64,000 bases of DNA from Acidaminococcus timonensis (lineage in GTDB: Bacteria > Bacillota > Negativicutes > Acidaminococcales > Acidaminococcaceae): the NCBI RefSeq assembly GCF_900106585.1, contig NZ_FNWH01000006.1, positions 1,394,502-1,458,501 of the forward strand, given 5' to 3'. This document shows, piece after piece, positions 4,513 through 56,315 of the stretch (the first letter of the stretch is position 1; each line of letters begins with the position of its first letter). The notes below the pieces were generated by a model. It ran no database searches and was not told the origin of the DNA. It saw nothing but the letters and a program-made list of their open reading frames with translations. The translations under genes were made by a program, and so were the position numbers.

Positions 4513-6015
4513 TCATCTGGCTTTTGTCCGGTCGATGGCCTGGGGCAGTTTTTCCAGCAGATCACCGGCTGCCAGGCCGATGGTACCGTTTGCAGCGGCC
4601 AGATCACCGGCCAGCCCATGGAGGTATACGCCGCAGCAGGCAGCCCGCACCAGGTTCAGTCCCTGGCCCAGCAGGGCGGCAATGGTACCGGTGAGCACAT
4701 CACCGCAGCCGCCGGTGGCCATCCCTTCGTTCCCGGTGGTATTGATGTAGATCTGGCCATCGGGTTGGGCAATGATGGTGGGGGTACATTTCAGCACCAC
4801 CACAGCCTGCCACTTCCTGGCCCCTTCCCGGGCTGCCGCCACCGGATCCTCCAGCACCTGGCTGACCGGTACGCCCAGCAACCGGGCCATTTCTCCCGGA
4901 TGGGGGGTAAATATTTTATGTTTCAGGGATTGCAGCAGGGCATCGTCCCCGGCCAGGGCATTGAGCCCGTCCGCATCCAAGACCAGCGGCTGCTGCAACT
5001 GGGGCAGAAGTTCCCGCAGATACTGGACGGTTTCCGGTGCCTTTCCGGCGCCCGGTCCGGCGGCTACTACATCGTAGGCCTGGAAGGCTTTCAGACTTGC
5101 TTCCGTCACCGGCCGCACCATCACTTCCGTGGATTTGATGATCAGCGGCTGCAGCACTTCCGGCTGGGTATACAGGGTCACCAGACCGGCCCCGGCCCGC
5201 ACAGCGGCCTTGGAGCACAGTTCCGCCGCCCCGGCATAGCCCAGGCTGCCGGCCAGGATGCCGATGCGCCCGTTCATGCCCTTATGGGCATTGGGAGGCC
5301 GTTTGGGCAGGGTGTGCTGCACCAGATCCTCTGTCAACAGTTCTGCCCGGCTTTCTGCTTCCAGGACAAGAGAAGGCGGTGTATCCAGATCGGCCAGGAC
5401 GATCCTGCCCGTATAACCGGCACCGGGGTACAGATACAGCCCCGGTTTGGGCGCAATCATGGTCACGGTCAGCCGGGCGTGGAGGGCCACGTCCGTATGG
5501 CCCGTATCAGCAGCCACCCCGCTGGGGATATCCACGGCCAGTACGGGTACAGGAACCATCTGCAGGGTCTCCAGCAGGGACCGGATGGGTTCCCGCACCT
5601 TGCCGTGGAAGCTGGTTCCCAGCAGGGCATCCACAAACAGATCCGCCTGGGCACAGGCCTGGAGCACATCGTTCTGGTCCTTTTCCCAACGCAGGATGGT
5701 AAAGGGGAAGCTGGCATCGATCTTATACTGGAGAGCGGCTCCCGGGCCGAAGCTTTCCGGCGCCTCGGCCAGTACCAGGGTCACCAGGGCACCCCGCTTC
5801 AACAGGAACCGGGCAGCGGCCAGTCCATCTCCGCCGTTGTTGCCCTTGCCCACGAACAGGATGATTTTCCTGTCCTTCACAGTCTCCAGCAGTTCCTGGG
5901 CAGCATCGGCCACAGCCCGGCCTGCATTCTCGATCAGGACTGCTTCCGGGATCCCCATCTCGCCGATGGCTTTCGTATCCACTTTTTTCATGGCTGCACT
6001 TGCAATGAGTTTCAT
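4513..6015 (-). CDS. nnrD: Bifunctional NAD(P)H-hydrate epimerase / ADP-dependent dehydratase
   Basis: Repairs damaged NAD(P)H hydrates. It has 500 residues. The N-terminal YjeF_N epimerase half (about 1-215) carries GKGNNGGDGLAAARFL near residues 58-73. The C-terminal ribokinase-like dehydratase half (about 225-500) carries the signature TGNEGMATGGCGDVLTGTIA. The fused layout is the common bacterial one. The start is the ATG at 6015 (MKLIASAAMK), 6 nt after GGAGG; a longer frame would run into acpS. It follows acpS by 1 nt, the usual acpS-nnr neighbourhood. Confidence 0.95.
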   Translation of the reverse strand: MKLIASAAMKKVDTKAIGEMGIPEAVLIENAGRAVADAAQELLETVKDRKIILFVGKGNNGGDGLAAARFLLKRGALVTLVLAEAPESFGPGAALQYKIDASFPFTILRWEKDQNDVLQACAQADLFVDALLGTSFHGKVREPIRSLLETLQMVPVPVLAVDIPSGVAADTGHTDVALHARLTVTMIAPKPGLYLYPGAGYTGRIVLADLDTPPSLVLEAESRAELLTEDLVQHTLPKRPPNAHKGMNGRIGILAGSLGYAGAAELCSKAAVRAGAGLVTLYTQPEVLQPLIIKSTEVMVRPVTEASLKAFQAYDVVAAGPGAGKAPETVQYLRELLPQLQQPLVLDADGLNALAGDDALLQSLKHKIFTPHPGEMARLLGVPVSQVLEDPVAAAREGARKWQAVVVLKCTPTIIAQPDGQIYINTTGNEGMATGGCGDVLTGTIAALLGQGLNLVRAACCGVYLHGLAGDLAAANGTIGLAAGDLLEKLPQAIDRTKAR

Positions 6016-15917: not shown

Positions 15918-15958
15918 GACCTGGGTCCGGGCGTCCCTTATGGGCCGCCCCTACGCAT
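15918..15958 (+). repeat. REP-like single arm, left of RAYT
   Basis: A 41-bp arm beginning GACCTGGGTCCGGGCGTCCC and ending CCCCTACGCAT. It is nearly identical and in the same orientation as 16711-16750, differing by a one-base gap. It belongs to the REP-like family also found at 16548, 43295 and 56211. Confidence 0.85.
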
Positions 15959-15993
15959 ATACACGCCGCTTTGGGTATTTTTGTCGATGGGGG

Positions 15994-16021
15994 TTGTCTT
16001 TCTTTTGTGATTTGTTATAAT
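15994..16021 (+). promoter_or_regulatory. Promoter of the RAYT gene
   Basis: TTGTCT (15994-15999), a 16-bp spacer and TATAAT (16016-16021), 50 bp before the ATG. Confidence 0.65.
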
Positions 16022-16070
16022 GAACATAATATCGTAATTATGAACATATGTTTTTATTGGAGGTGTTTCC

Positions 16071-16604
16071 ATGTCAGCCCCTGTCCTTCTCCATCCCAAA
16101 CGCCGCTGGACCCGGCTCCGTCCTGATGTCTATGCCCAAAATGGACGGGTCTTCCTGACCTTGTGTGCCAAAGGAAAACAACCGATTTTTGGGTACATTG
16201 AAAACGACCTGCTGCACCCCACTCCCATCGGAATCATGGTTTCCCGGCAGCTGGATGCATTCCAGCACCGATATGAAGGCCTTTCCATTGAACAATCTGT
16301 ATTGATGCCCAATCACCTCCATATGCTGCTGGCCCGGTCATCGGAGGGGATTGCCCTGGGCCAATTCGTGAACCTCTTCAAAGGGTGGTCCACGCGCGCC
16401 TGTGGATGCTCCATTTGGCAAAGGGGATATTATGACCATTTGGTACGGAATGAGCAGGACGAAATGCGGATCCGGGAATATATGACGAACAATCCCCAGA
16501 AGTGGGAATTGGACAAGGAATATTACAGGGAATCAGCAAATGAATCAGGCCCTCTGGGCGACCTGGGTCCGGGCGCCCCTTATGGGTCGCCCCTACGCAA
16601 GTAG
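16071..16604 (+). CDS. REP-associated tyrosine transposase (RAYT, Y1_Tnp family)
   Basis: A single-domain Y1 transposase of 177 residues, related to IS200/IS605 TnpA and TnpA_REP, which nick and join single-stranded REP palindromes. The metal-binding HUH pair is His82/His84 in LMPNHLHMLL. The candidate catalytic tyrosine is Tyr120 or Tyr121 in WQRGYYDHLVRNEQD, followed by the RAYT-typical REYMTNNPQKW. GGAGG lies 7 nt before the ATG and a good promoter is present, so the gene looks functional. The last ~18 codons (from ESGPLGDLG) are encoded by the flanking REP arm itself. Confidence 0.9.
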   Translation: MSAPVLLHPKRRWTRLRPDVYAQNGRVFLTLCAKGKQPIFGYIENDLLHPTPIGIMVSRQLDAFQHRYEGLSIEQSVLMPNHLHMLLARSSEGIALGQFVNLFKGWSTRACGCSIWQRGYYDHLVRNEQDEMRIREYMTNNPQKWELDKEYYRESANESGPLGDLGPGAPYGSPLRK

Positions 16605-16674
16605 CGTACGGTTCGACTTATCTCCGTAGGGTCTACCCGTCAGGGGAGACCGTTCCCAGGTCACCCAGAGGGCC
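16548..16674. repeat. REP-like paired palindrome, right of RAYT
   Basis: Two inverted arms of about 50 bp. The left starts GGCCCTCTGGGCGACCTGGG and the right ends CCCAGGTCACCCAGAGGGCC; both contain the GACCTGGG...CCCTACG core of the family. It overlaps the 3' end of the RAYT gene. Confidence 0.88.
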
Positions 16675-16710
16675 ATCCAGGTCCACCTTTCGGAACCGGA
16701 TCCCGTTGAT

Positions 16711-16750
16711 GACCTGGGTCCGGGCGTCCCTTATGGGCCGCCCCACGCAT
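16711..16750 (+). repeat. REP-like single arm upstream of sbcD
   Basis: A 40-bp arm, a direct repeat of 15918-15958. Together they bracket the RAYT block. Confidence 0.85.
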
Positions 16751-43077: not shown

Positions 43078-43238
43078 AAGGAGTCTCACAGAAGGTGTAA
43101 AAACCCATCCACCAGCCATTGGGCTGGTCCCCCTTCCCTTTTCCCCGGGACTAGGCCGTTCCTCTTCGTCACGGCCGTCGCGGGAAGGACAAAAGAGGTA
43201 AAAAAAGCGCTGTGAAAAAATGCTTTTTCACACCCCGT

Positions 43239-43277
43239 CACTAGTCACTAGCCGATGGAAGCCAGCTGACGCTGGCA
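43239..43277. repeat. R3 repeat
   Basis: A GTCACTAG-type sequence followed by the palindrome GCCAGCTGACGCTGGC. The other copy is at 56085-56147. Confidence 0.6.
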
Positions 43278-43294
43278 AAAAAAGGCCGCTGGCC

Positions 43295-43394
43295 GACCTG
43301 GGAACGGACGTCCCTCATGGACCGTCCCTACGAATACACACCAGTTACGATGCATGCGTAGGGACTACCCGTAAGGGGAGTCCGAATCCAGGTC
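43295..43394. repeat. REP-like paired palindrome upstream of the porin cluster
   Basis: Two inverted arms with the GACCTGG...CCCTACG core, as at 16548-16674. The left begins GACCTGGGAACGGACG; the right ends in the complement of GACCTGGATTCGGACTCCCC. Confidence 0.85.
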
Positions 43395-45046: not shown

Positions 45047-45060
45047 TTGGTTTTCTGTTA

Positions 45061-46359
45061 TCAGAACGTGATGTTCAGTTCGGACCACAGAGTGCGGGCA
45101 TGCTTGTTGCCTGCATCGATGCCGTTTTCTGTATCTTTGTTCTTCAGATCATAGTATTCCACGGTAGCCACCATGTTCTTGGCCACGGTCAGGTTGCCGC
45201 CCACCATGTAGCCCTTGAACCCGGTGTACGGGAATACGTACCAGTCGCCGTTCATGGTGTGGGAGGCCACGGTCACAGCAGCCTGGTCATAGTATTTGGC
45301 ATACAGGCCCCAGGTACCCGGTTTCTTTTCATCGGCACCGGCATAGCCCAGACCCACTACATAACCATCATCATCCACATTGTTGACCCAGCTGTTGTTC
45401 TTGGAATCAGCGTCACCCTTCAGGTACATGGCGTTCACATTCCATTTGCCGGCAGTATAATCGGCCCCAACGGTCCAGATTTTGTTGTCAGTCTTATCCA
45501 GGGTGCTTTCCCCTTCATTCATGGCGCCGAAGTCCTGGTCATTAATCTTGGTATAAGTGGCTTCGCCGTGCAGGTTGCCCCAGTTGCCGCCCAGGGCTGC
45601 GCTCCAGTAGGTATCCCCTACGGAACCATCTTTATCCTGCCAGCCATACCGATCAGCGTTGGCCAGCTTACCATAGGCAGCGGACAGATATCCCTGGCCG
45701 AATTTTACATCAGCCCGGACAGCGTCGGCACGGTCATCGAACACGTTCCCATCAGCAATAAAGTCATTGAAACGGCCGGCGGTGATGTCCACCACGCCGA
45801 TATTCCCGTTCAGATAGGCTCTCTGGAAGTTCGTATCGCTGTCGCCAGATTCGTTCTTGCCTTCGAAGTATTGCTGGTTCTGGATCATAGCGGTGTAATG
45901 CCAGTTGTCGTTCACTTCACCGGTGAACCACAGACGGGTCCGCAGCTGGGCTTCGGATTTGTCATCCCAATTCTTGAAGCCAGCGCCTCTGCGATCTGCA
46001 TAGCTGATACGGGCAGCCCCGGTCACCTGTACATTGTCCGCGTTCTTTTCCAGTCTGGCCACCCGCACACCCAGGTTGTCCAGTTCATCCGCGAATTCGC
46101 TGACCAGTTTGTCATCGGCACCGATGGCGCCTTTGGCCAGGGCCTTGGCCACGATCTGGGCCATTTCATAACGGGTCATGGTCCTGTCACCCTTGAAGGT
46201 GCCATCCGGATACCCGTCCACCACACCGGCAGCCGCCAGTTTGGCCACCGCGCCGTAGGCCCAGTGGCCGGCAGGCAGATCGGAGAAGGGGTTGGCGGCA
46301 AAGGCAGTGGCGCTGATGCCCAGAGCCATGGCCATGGCAAACACTAAGGATTTTTTCAT
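45061..46359 (-). CDS. SLH-domain outer-membrane porin P2 (promoter displaced by IS21)
   Basis: A 432-residue paralogue of P1 with an intact frame: signal peptide, SLH (NPFSDLPAGHWAYGAVAKLA), linker and barrel ending TLWSELNITF. The first ~100 residues are almost identical to P1 and P3, while the barrel diverges in the loops. SD GGGAGG precedes the ATG at 46359. An IS21 element 68 bp upstream separates it from its own promoter, so expression should be reduced or altered. Confidence 0.93.
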   Translation of the reverse strand: MKKSLVFAMAMALGISATAFAANPFSDLPAGHWAYGAVAKLAAAGVVDGYPDGTFKGDRTMTRYEMAQIVAKALAKGAIGADDKLVSEFADELDNLGVRVARLEKNADNVQVTGAARISYADRRGAGFKNWDDKSEAQLRTRLWFTGEVNDNWHYTAMIQNQQYFEGKNESGDSDTNFQRAYLNGNIGVVDITAGRFNDFIADGNVFDDRADAVRADVKFGQGYLSAAYGKLANADRYGWQDKDGSVGDTYWSAALGGNWGNLHGEATYTKINDQDFGAMNEGESTLDKTDNKIWTVGADYTAGKWNVNAMYLKGDADSKNNSWVNNVDDDGYVVGLGYAGADEKKPGTWGLYAKYYDQAAVTVASHTMNGDWYVFPYTGFKGYMVGGNLTVAKNMVATVEYYDLKNKDTENGIDAGNKHARTLWSELNITF

Positions 46360-46427
46360 TGGAGATTCCTCCCAGAAGATATTTTTATCCAGGCAGTTTG
46401 CCGTTTCTTCCCCATTCCCGCGAGTCT
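46360..46427 (-). promoter_or_regulatory. 3' part of the P2 leader, cut by IS21
   Basis: The remaining 68 nt of leader next to the P2 start, ending in AGTCT, the target duplication. The other part is 48634-48714. Confidence 0.8.
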
Positions 46428-46538
46428 TGTTAAGGCCGGACTATAATTGACCTAAAGGGCCGGAAAAAAATGACCCACCTCATACCAAAGTGGATTACCA
46501 TAATAATAAGCGACCAAACTTGTTAGGAGGTAGTCCAA

Positions 46539-47756
46539 ATGATAGGAAGTGGGCTTATTATGATAATACGCGATAGTGCAAGAAAAGGCAAGAGCGCATA
46601 TGCTATCGGTAAAGAGCAGAATATTTCCAAGAATACGGCCAAGAAGTATATGCAAGTGGCTACTCTGCCGGAGCAACCTCATAAGCGCGGTTCCATTCTG
46701 GATCCCTTTAAGCCGCAGGTCAACCAGATGATGCACGATGGCATATTCAACTGCGTCGTCATCCTGGAGACCTTGCAACAGATGGGTTACACCGGTGGGA
46801 AGACCATCATCAAGGATTATGTCCACGTTTTTCGTCCGCCAAAGACCATCCCGGCTGTGCCACGGTATGAAACCGAGCCCGGCAGACAAGCCCAGATGGA
46901 TTGGGGAATCTGCCAATATTTGGGCACAGATGGCGAATTCCATAAAGTTCCGGCTTTCGTCATGACCCTGGGATACTCCAGGGCCAGGTACGTGGAATTC
47001 ACAAAGCGGTGTGACCTCAAAAGCCTGGAACGCTGCATCCTGAACGCTTTCGAATATTTCGGCGGAGTTCCTGATGTTGTGCTGACAGACAACATGAAGA
47101 CAGTTGTCCTGAAACACGAGGCCGGTAAGACCATCTTCCTTCCCGCTTTCGAAAGTTTCTGTGCCGATATGGGCTTCAAGCCTTCCACCTGTAAGGTACG
47201 CCGGCCTCAGACGAAAGGGAAGGTGGAACGTTCTGTCCGTTATCTCAAGGAGAATTTCCTGCCTGGAAGACGTTTCACCAATCTGTACGACCTGAACCGT
47301 CAGGCTCTTCAATGGTGCCAGCATGTGAACGGCAAGAAGCATGGGACTACAGGGAAAATCCCTCTGCAGGAATTGGCGGCCGAGCATTTGAACCCGCTCC
47401 CGCCTCAGGAACTGCGTAACCGTTACCGCTGGGAAGATCGGCGGATTTCCAAAGATGGATTCGTCAGTTTCGATGGTCATCTCTATGGTATAGATTGGCA
47501 TTACAGCGGCAGAGAAGCCCGGGTCCGGCTGTACCAGAACCATGTACAGGTATTCGTAGATAACCTTCCTGTGGCAGATATACCGCTCTCTGAAGTAAAG
47601 GGATATTATGTTCCGCAGCAGGCGCAATACAGCGGATTGGAGGCAAAGGAAGGCATTGCTTACCCTCGAACGGCAGGAATCCAGATGAAAGAGGATGTGG
47701 TGAAACGACCTCTAGCCCTTTACGACAGGCTGATGGAGGTGGTATCCAATGCTTGA
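46539..47756 (+). CDS. istA: IS21 transposase IstA
   Basis: A DDE transposase of 405 residues. An N-terminal HTH (about 12-40: GKSAYAIGKEQNISKNTAKK) precedes the rve integrase core: QAQMDWG (first Asp), VVLTDNMKT (second Asp) and QTKGKVERSVRYLKENF (Glu). A beta-rich C-terminal domain follows. SD AGGAGG before the ATG. It overlaps istB by 8 nt. No stop or frameshift, so likely active. Confidence 0.94.
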   Translation: MIGSGLIMIIRDSARKGKSAYAIGKEQNISKNTAKKYMQVATLPEQPHKRGSILDPFKPQVNQMMHDGIFNCVVILETLQQMGYTGGKTIIKDYVHVFRPPKTIPAVPRYETEPGRQAQMDWGICQYLGTDGEFHKVPAFVMTLGYSRARYVEFTKRCDLKSLERCILNAFEYFGGVPDVVLTDNMKTVVLKHEAGKTIFLPAFESFCADMGFKPSTCKVRRPQTKGKVERSVRYLKENFLPGRRFTNLYDLNRQALQWCQHVNGKKHGTTGKIPLQELAAEHLNPLPPQELRNRYRWEDRRISKDGFVSFDGHLYGIDWHYSGREARVRLYQNHVQVFVDNLPVADIPLSEVKGYYVPQQAQYSGLEAKEGIAYPRTAGIQMKEDVVKRPLALYDRLMEVVSNA

Positions 47757-48552
47757 AGTGGAGCATGCCAGGCAGCTCCTGGCTGAATTCAATATGCCGG
47801 AGGCAGCCTGCCAGCTGGATGCCCTTCTGGAAACGGCCGCTGCAAAAGACTCGACTTTTATTTCGTTTCTCGACCAGCTCCTGAGCTTTCAACAGAAGGA
47901 ACGAACTGAGAAAGCCATCCGGAAAAGGATGAAAGCTGCGCGGATCCCGGCCGTGAAGACCCTGGAGGAATTCGATTTTTCGTTCCAGCCCAGCCTGAAT
48001 CCGAAACAGCTCCAGGAACTGCGTACACTTGCTTTTGTGGAACGAGGTGAAAATCTGATCCTGCTGGGCCCGCCGGGGGTCGGCAAGACGCACCTGGCCA
48101 CCGCGTTTGCGGTAGAAACCCTGCACCACGGCAAAACCGCATACTTCATTACGCTAGCCCATCTTATTGAAGATCTGGAAAAGCGTCGGGAAAAAAGGCT
48201 GTTGTCCAGGCGCTGCAAATTTTACGCCCGGCCAGATGTCCTGGTGATAGATGAAGTTGGCTATATGCAGCTGAGCCGGCAGCAGGCAGAATTGCTGTTC
48301 CAGATTGTCTGTGCCCGCTACGAGCGGGGCACCATAATTATGACCAGCAACAAGTATTTCAGTGACTGGGGTGAACTCATGAGCGATTCAGTGATTGCGA
48401 CTGCTATCCTGGACCGATTGCTGTACCATGCTCATGTGATAAATATTAGAGGTGAGAGTTACCGGCTGAAAGATCGTCTGCGTGCAGGTTTGAATCCGGC
48501 CGTCCCCCAGCCCGGCCTTGGGAAAACCGGCTTTAAGGACTTCCGGCCCTAA
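47749..48552 (+). CDS. istB: IS21 helper ATPase IstB
   Basis: An AAA+ ATPase that chooses the target and assists IstA, 267 residues. Walker A is LLGPPGVGKTHLATA, Walker B is VLVIDEVGYMQ, and the sensor segment is IIMTSNKYFSDWGE. SD GGAGG overlaps the istA end. Full length for the family. Confidence 0.94.
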   Translation: MLEVEHARQLLAEFNMPEAACQLDALLETAAAKDSTFISFLDQLLSFQQKERTEKAIRKRMKAARIPAVKTLEEFDFSFQPSLNPKQLQELRTLAFVERGENLILLGPPGVGKTHLATAFAVETLHHGKTAYFITLAHLIEDLEKRREKRLLSRRCKFYARPDVLVIDEVGYMQLSRQQAELLFQIVCARYERGTIIMTSNKYFSDWGELMSDSVIATAILDRLLYHAHVINIRGESYRLKDRLRAGLNPAVPQPGLGKTGFKDFRP

Positions 48553-48638
48553 GGCAGAAAAAGCATTGAATTTACCGTTTTATTGGGTCACTTTTAACCG
48601 GCCAAATGGGTCAAATTGAACCCGGCCTTGACAAGTCT

Positions 48639-56210: not shown

Positions 56211-56315
56211 GACCTGGGTTCGGACTTCCCCTTACAGGCAGTCCTTACGCATGAAACATACCCTGTACGTTTCTCCTCGTAGGGGCGACCCATGAGGGGC
56301 GCCCGTTCCCAGGTC
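56211..56315. repeat. REP-like paired palindrome downstream of lptFG
   Basis: Inverted arms with the GACCTGGG...CCTTACG and GACCTGGGAACGGGCGCCCC...CCCTACG cores. It sits just after the lptFG stop and may help end that operon. Confidence 0.85.

Follow-up and report, generated by a model that had tools for sequence, protein, structure and literature searches.

A candidate REPtron in Acidaminococcus timonensis: a single-copy RAYT gene among GTAG-tagged REP arms

The RAYT gene and its REP arms

The window is a stretch of 64,000 nucleotides from Acidaminococcus timonensis (contig NZ_FNWH01000006.1, positions 1,394,502 to 1,458,501). It holds a gene for a REP-associated tyrosine transposase (RAYT, or TnpA-REP) with four short palindromic arms beside it, two of which form an inverted pair (REPIN), and two further head-to-head arm pairs (REPINs) at 43295-43394 and 56211-56315. 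The features are as follows:

15918..15955, minus strand: REP arm A1, single; covariance-model match
15994..16021, plus strand: promoter-like site TTGTCT-16-TATAAT upstream of the RAYT gene; weak, with 3 such sites found against 1.1 expected in shuffles
from 16059: GGAGG ahead of the RAYT gene
16071..16604, plus strand: RAYT / TnpA-REP gene; intact reading frame of 177 aa with sequence, profile and fold matches
16549..16559, strand not assigned: outer mini-hairpin GCCC-TCT-GGGC adjoining arm A2
16560..16597, minus strand: REP arm A2, left arm of the REPIN at the RAYT gene; encodes residues 164-176
16598..16624, strand not assigned: REPIN spacer of 27 nt, containing the RAYT stop codon (16602-16604)
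16625..16662, plus strand: REP arm A3, right arm of the REPIN at the RAYT gene
16711..16747, minus strand: REP arm A4, single, its tag decayed to CGTG
43295..43332, minus strand: REP arm of the 43.3-kb REPIN
43357..43394, plus strand: second REP arm of the 43.3-kb REPIN
56211..56249, minus strand: REP arm of the 56.2-kb REPIN
56278..56315, plus strand: second REP arm of the 56.2-kb REPIN

A preliminary description had placed a full-length Y1 (HUH) transposase of the REP-associated type between a single arm, a palindrome pair that encodes its C-terminus and another single arm; the intact frame, the profile matches given below and the arms beginning at 15918, 16560/16625 and 16711 agree with it, and the same arm family recurs at 43.3 and 56.2 kb, as it had also stated. 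The protein matches Pfam Y1_Tnp (PF01797) at 23.1 bits, against a cut-off of 23, and NCBIfam NF047646 (REP-associated tyrosine transposase) with an E-value of 3e-15; the latter score, 56.4 bits, lies under the curated cut-off of 80, and the best E-values for this family in the genus (1.9e-16 and weaker) fall outside the range of the rows above that cut-off. The solved structure closest in sequence is 4er8, a TnpA-REP (E 3.8e-4). A structure model built with 26 relatives reached a mean pLDDT of 85.9, falling below 50 for residues 163-177, and a Foldseek search with this model returned 30 PDB chains at E <= 0.001. All of them carry a transposase label, mostly of the IS200/IS605 type, and 4er8, solved with a REP hairpin, had the highest TM to the query (0.59, rmsd 3.3; TM pair 0.59/0.63).

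The HUH motif reads H82-L-H84, and Y137, within YMTNNP, is the presumed catalytic tyrosine. All 27 aligned proteins share H82, H84, K104, Q117, R126 and Y137, and W116, which with Q117 forms a W-Q pair, is almost invariant. W116, Q117 and R126 align with W94, Q95 and R104 of the E. coli protein, the GTAG-contacting residues that PMC6006769 names as well conserved in the portion consulted, to which all our statements from this and the other cited papers refer. The epithet "active-looking" in the preliminary description holds for the intact reading frame and the intact catalytic residues, and it extends no further than these; no insertion polymorphism was observed. The GC content of the RAYT core, 0.52, is lower than that of its neighbors (0.58 and 0.62).

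It is hardly credible, in our estimate, that 15918-16747 is an ordinary IS200/IS605 insertion sequence with REP-like ends. Such an element would share the fold and carry arms on both sides, as this one does; however, the unit is single copy (one match in a genome search), whereas three further Y1 genes elsewhere in the genome all score 140.1 bits with PF01797, and the protein carries the class-2 signature Y---NP (YMTNNP, with H82/H84 and Y137) instead of the class-1 Y---Q of IS200 (PMC6006769). The arms, moreover, occupy 53 sites against one RAYT gene. No DNA match to the RAYT gene was found among phage records.

Read on the strand that shows GTAG, an arm consists of CGTAG, a stem of five pairs, a one-base mismatch, three further pairs, a 4-nt loop and a tail ending in CCCAGGTC; the GTAG stands directly 5' of the imperfect palindrome, and the hairpins fold. 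The conserved length is ~38 nt, shorter than the ~50 bp originally proposed. A strict core pattern of the arm occurs at four places and its reversed control at none. Residues 164-176, encoded by arm A2, are predicted to be disordered, and the related RAYT of another Acidaminococcus genome, G004, stops at residue 155 and has no arm-encoded tail of this kind. The mini-hairpin GCCC-N3-GGGC also adjoins the arms of a second family (R2, below) and may belong to the repeat element. The idea that REPINs insert into the loops of intrinsic terminators comes from a few flanks read by eye. Rfam gave two rows for MIR820, at 34.8 and 28.4 bits (cut-off 196), and a single row for SurA, at 15.2 bits (cut-off 100), which we took as chance matches or artefacts of long inverted repeats.

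A second dispersed repeat of ~95-110 bp lies at 43184-43292, directly before the 43.3-kb REPIN, and contains GTGAAAAAAT...TTTTTCAC, CACTAGTCACTAGCC and GAAGCCAGCTGACGCTGGC; it occurs at a minimum of about 29 places in a related genome, G001 (40 of 202 candidates scored).

Arm population of the genome

A covariance model built from the eight window arms, which themselves score 54-65 bits with the model trained on them, puts the genome's arms of this family (R1) at 75 or more with E <= 0.001 and 79 or more with E <= 0.01; both counts are lower bounds, from scoring 150 of 614 first-look candidates. Most of these arms (71 of 79) lie outside the window, and GTAG is intact in 70 of the 79. The 79 arms are distributed over 53 sites as 29 singles, 20 head-to-head pairs, two triplets, one tail-to-tail pair and one tandem. 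Both triplets contain a head-to-head pair, bringing that arrangement to 22 of the 53 sites, with spacers of 18-29 nt that measure 27 nt in twelve cases.

Outer-stem pairing was assessed in the 66 arms that measure exactly 38 nt: on average 4.82 of the five pairs are intact, against a mean of 3.94 and a maximum of 4.26 when the 3' sides are shuffled among arms (2,000 shuffles), a contrast inflated by related copies. The last base of the 5' stem divides these arms into a G-type (41) and a T-type (25), the other 13 arms being left untyped because their length is not 38 nt. Every typed pair joins one arm of each type (19 of 19; 17 head to head and 2 tail to tail, two of the 19 sharing one arm and five further pairs being untyped), and none of 100,000 permutations was as extreme.

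The positions of the sites relative to genes, which the preliminary description had proposed to determine together with the genome-wide count, rest on a rough gene caller of our own that missed the RAYT gene, probably because of its codon use. By this caller, the genes on either side of a site are in tandem at 38 of the 53 sites, convergent at 9 and divergent at 3 (two of these three being the sites at the missed RAYT gene); 2 sites partly overlap a gene and 1 has no neighbor; none lies wholly inside a called gene, and the window REPIN overlaps the RAYT 3' end. Neighboring gene 3' ends are within 100 bp of a site in 32 of 58 cases and 5' ends in 14 of 47.

This preference for gene 3' ends, rough as the caller is, would also suit a different origin of the arms, namely as 3'-UTR elements of the host, either terminators or mRNA stabilizers, spread by recombination or by some other enzyme, with the RAYT gene merely among them. 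Two terminator-like matches at the RAYT-adjoining arms, where 1.2 are expected, point the same way. Against it stand the density of arms at the RAYT locus, four in 830 bp where the genome mean predicts 0.03, and the retention of the residues named for GTAG contact; together with the other RAYT loci described below, these make the host-element origin improbable. Mobile and host roles are compatible: once inserted, the repeats may be of use to the host.

RAYTs and arm families in the genus

RAYT genes were found in three of the nine Acidaminococcus genomes searched, namely the one studied here, G004 (52% identical protein) and G005 (33-36%), and an order-wide search of 63 genomes returned the same three. 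They occupy three different loci. The M48-sbcD locus that holds the window RAYT showed none in the relatives, where no tblastn match at the loci examined was better than E 0.04; in G005 this locus is split between contigs. In a tree computed without the columns absent from the three genus RAYTs, the proteins of A. timonensis and G004 are sisters (SH-aLRT 99); support for grouping all three is 79, and the placement of the G005 protein, whose best identity (44%) is to a Pasteurellaceae protein, is unsure.

Each of the three genes is flanked on both sides by its own kind of GTAG hairpins, which argues against the host-element origin and bears out the earlier claim of a RAYT with its REPs, alongside the fold, the arm anatomy and the genome-wide copies. 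We modeled the G004-type arms as R2 (trained on 5 G004 and 7 G005 arms) and the arms adjoining the G005 RAYT as R3 (trained on 6 G005 arms). With 150 candidates scored per genome, all counts are lower bounds, and those of R2 and R3 in G004 and G005, the training genomes, depend on the models. R1 arms (E <= 0.001) number at least 75 in A. timonensis, 10 in G001, 4 in G005 and 2 in G002, with none among the scored candidates of five others; R2 arms (E <= 0.0001) at least 118 in G005, 44 in G004, 12 in G001 and 4 in A. timonensis, with none among those scored in five others; and R3 arms (E <= 0.0001) at least 120 in G001, 58 in G005 and 11 in G004, with none among those scored in six others. Read by eye from part of the coordinates, paired arms have GTAG inside and lie ~65 nt apart in R1, GTAG inside and ~130 nt apart in R2, and GTAG outside and 52 nt apart in R3.

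The G001 genome, a single contig, yielded no RAYT by protein search or with NF047646; its sole Y1 gene is IS200-like by score (PF01797, 145 bits). It nevertheless holds the at least 120 R3 arms just given, including four in tandem at 43-nt steps (C1:930682-930842). This persistence of REPs in a species without a RAYT speaks for the host-element origin, and its simplest reading is loss of the RAYT; such losses have been noted in many E. coli strains (PMC3733652). In G005, the R2 arms, whose family surrounds the RAYT of G004, are abundant, yet its one RAYT found sits among R3 arms. At the level of genomes, the coupling of RAYT and REPs is loose.

Arms occurring independently of a RAYT in related species had been named in the preliminary description as grounds for doubting the association. 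To the letter this is the case, since G001 (at least 10 R1 arms) and G002 (at least 2) hold arms of the window family and no detected RAYT; but 8 of the 10 arms in G001 look imported. These eight lie in segments 95.8-98.4% identical to the A. timonensis genome (L087, L088 and L090), and the other two in 257 nt that match it at 93% (L089), against a background of 79-86% in eight orthologous window blocks (81-84% in another comparison). Because flanks of 96-98% identity stand out from that background, most R1 arms of G001 probably arrived with imported DNA.

At the G001 places orthologous to the two distant window REPINs, the gaps measure 92 bp (358 bp in the window) at 43.3 kb and 179 bp (227 bp) at 56.2 kb, and no R1 match was found in them among the scored candidates. 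Using these empty sites to define the REPIN ends was rejected, as flanks of 79-86% identity give no base-precise junctions.

Several further observations concern repeats and exchange in these genomes. The block at 45060-46427 of the window is 96% identical to G001 while neighboring blocks are 79-86% identical, a sign of interspecies recombination in a repeated-gene cluster. The adjoining ~2.2 kb (46428-48633) have no counterpart at the orthologous position of G001, and the two matches on either side share 5 bases there, as if a mobile element had inserted; a 94% copy of 46428-47689 occurs in G002 (L039), and the L039 stretch matches another A. timonensis locus (L057) equally well. Elsewhere in A. 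timonensis (L063, G000:C6:902500-914500), a gene is duplicated at 1691-2431 and 5064-5807 with the same left flank, and a REP arm stands beside each copy, once single and once paired.

Relatives beyond the genus and known systems

To characterize the hairpins of more distant RAYTs, we used the best 80 of 427 confirmed relatives (591 stretches) from a scan of named genomes; 51 of these 80 are from Bacillota, and the others include Chloroflexota, Cyanobacteriota and Pseudomonadota. With the three genus loci added, making 83, GTAG hairpins number 134 within 600 bp of the RAYT (1.37 per kb) and 56 beyond 1.2 kb (0.22 per kb). Other four-letter orders gave 8-43 matches near the RAYT, and TAGG, which overlaps GTAGG, gave 113. 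The scan found a flanking GTAG hairpin at 45 of the 83 loci, on both sides at 24, and none at the other 38; in a control set of 30 long RAYT-like loci of the class, there were no flanking GTAG hairpins and one internal. This enrichment at RAYTs from several phyla is a further argument against a host-element origin of the arms.

GTAG hairpins also occur within the coding sequences, 122 of them in 63 of the same best 80 relatives, whereas other letter orders gave 3-12 matches in 3-11 genes (TAGG, again overlapping GTAGG, gave 115 in 63). In 38 of the 80, a plus arm precedes the HUH codons and a minus arm lies between HUH and the tyrosine, spaced 182-358 nt apart (median 190), as at L216:2992-3474 and L217:2959-3474 (among L206-L285); 25 have other layouts and 17 have no such hairpin. 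One arm of a gene is read in sense and its partner in antisense, so the peptides they encode differ; the arms are identical in 11 of the 38 genes and covary between species. They differ by an average of 1.7 edits, against 7.7 when shuffled between genes (minimum 6.1 of 5,000), and internal and flanking arms of the same locus (27 loci) differ by a mean of 5.4 edits, against 9.5 (minimum 7.9 of 5,000), both sets of shuffles ignoring kinship among genes. The window RAYT has a single in-gene arm, A2, at the 3' end of the gene, and the G004 and G005 genes contain no in-gene GTAG hairpin. In-frame REP insertions, generally between HuH and Y, have been described for subclass 2.4 genes in PMC6006769, whose consulted passages yielded no mention of a REP site ahead of HUH. 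We tentatively suggest, as a possibility we would rate below even odds, that in this wider clade the RAYT gene is built around a resident REPIN that acts both as an autoregulatory device and as a master copy seeding the REPs of the genome, with the in-frame arms kept as DNA (or RNA) hairpins even as their sequence diverges between species; the C-terminal REPIN of the window would then be another form of the same habit.

For the window itself, sequence, fold, arm anatomy, genome-wide copies and the GTAG hairpins that the other two genus RAYTs carry as their own support the identity of RAYT and REPs, and with a probability of about 0.9 we interpret it as a REPtron, that is, a single-copy RAYT (HUH/Tyr Y1 transposase) with a cognate GTAG-REP population. 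By analogy with the TnpA-REPs of E. coli and other organisms, the RAYT would bind single-stranded DNA at the 5' GTAG and its mismatched hairpin, cleave beside the hairpin through Tyr137 and, over evolutionary time, copy REPINs into intergenic DNA, often near gene 3' ends; the copied unit would be a G-type and a T-type arm in inverted orientation around a ~27-nt spacer. We infer binding, cleavage, movement and any present activity only from this analogy.

By motifs, the window RAYT is closest to TnpA-REP subclass 2.4 (PMC6006769, where it is equated with Bertels group 4). The two share the WQ motif, Y-x-x-N-N-P, REPs with a GTAG foot within 1 kb, an in-gene REP that keeps the frame and a patchy spread over phyla. 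The window protein, with NHLH and YMTNNP, is one letter off in each of the subclass motifs of Table 1 of that paper (NH[IFV]H and YIxNNP), and the G004 and G005 RAYTs fit them (NHIH, WQ and YIGNNP or YIRNNP). The in-gene REP is C-terminal here instead of between HuH and Y, and the R1 hairpin has an internal mismatch. Subclass 2.4 is described with long REPs that have three G-C pairs at the stem foot, or with double-foot REPs. Three such pairs occur in 10 of 66 R1 arms and two in 64 of 66; R2 and R3 arms read GGG...CCC. The same paper also lists for the subclass an insertion of 8 aa where helix B ends. The main text of PMC6006769 does not name Firmicutes.

The E. coli REPtron (PMC8266576; 4er8) resembles this system in its GTAG foot, its mismatched hairpin and the retained W, Q and R for GTAG contact, and its y and z REPs, frequently joined in BIMEs, recall the two arm subtypes that make up inverted pairs here. 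It differs in belonging to subclass 2.2, in its arm sequence and in its copy number, about six hundred in K12 against at least 79 here. GTAG-REP families (PMC3733652) likewise consist of GTAG-tagged palindromes, mostly downstream of genes and adjoining RAYTs; their hosts in that paper are Proteobacteria, Cyanobacteria, Chloroflexi and the PVC superphylum, whereas 51 of our best 80 relatives are Bacillota. REPINs as described in PMC8049555 share the inverted REP doublets, the intermediate copy number and the single RAYT. That paper finds RAYTs vertically inherited and REPIN transfer not significant at the species level; in Acidaminococcus, by contrast, RAYTs sit at three loci in three of nine species, and arm-bearing segments look transferred.

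Two Geobacillus genome papers tabulate genes annotated RayT (COG1943), and RayT also appears in a metagenome study; the consulted parts of these reports mention no repeats alongside such Firmicutes genes. Firmicutes and similar words were likewise not found in the consulted part of PMC2817692, and a literature search returned no title on a RAYT-REP system in Negativicutes, Firmicutes or Acidaminococcus. This kind of system is known, and its occurrence in a little-described genus is new to the literature consulted.

The window thus presents a well-formed REPIN/RAYT system from a genus absent from the consulted parts of this literature, with three RAYTs and three REP families within that one genus. 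The in-gene REP pairs of the wider relatives would allow self-regulation of RAYTs through their own hairpins to be tested directly. With one species holding a RAYT and its REPs, another more than 100 REPs and no RAYT, and some arms apparently transferred between species, the genus amounts to a natural experiment on whether REPs need a resident RAYT.
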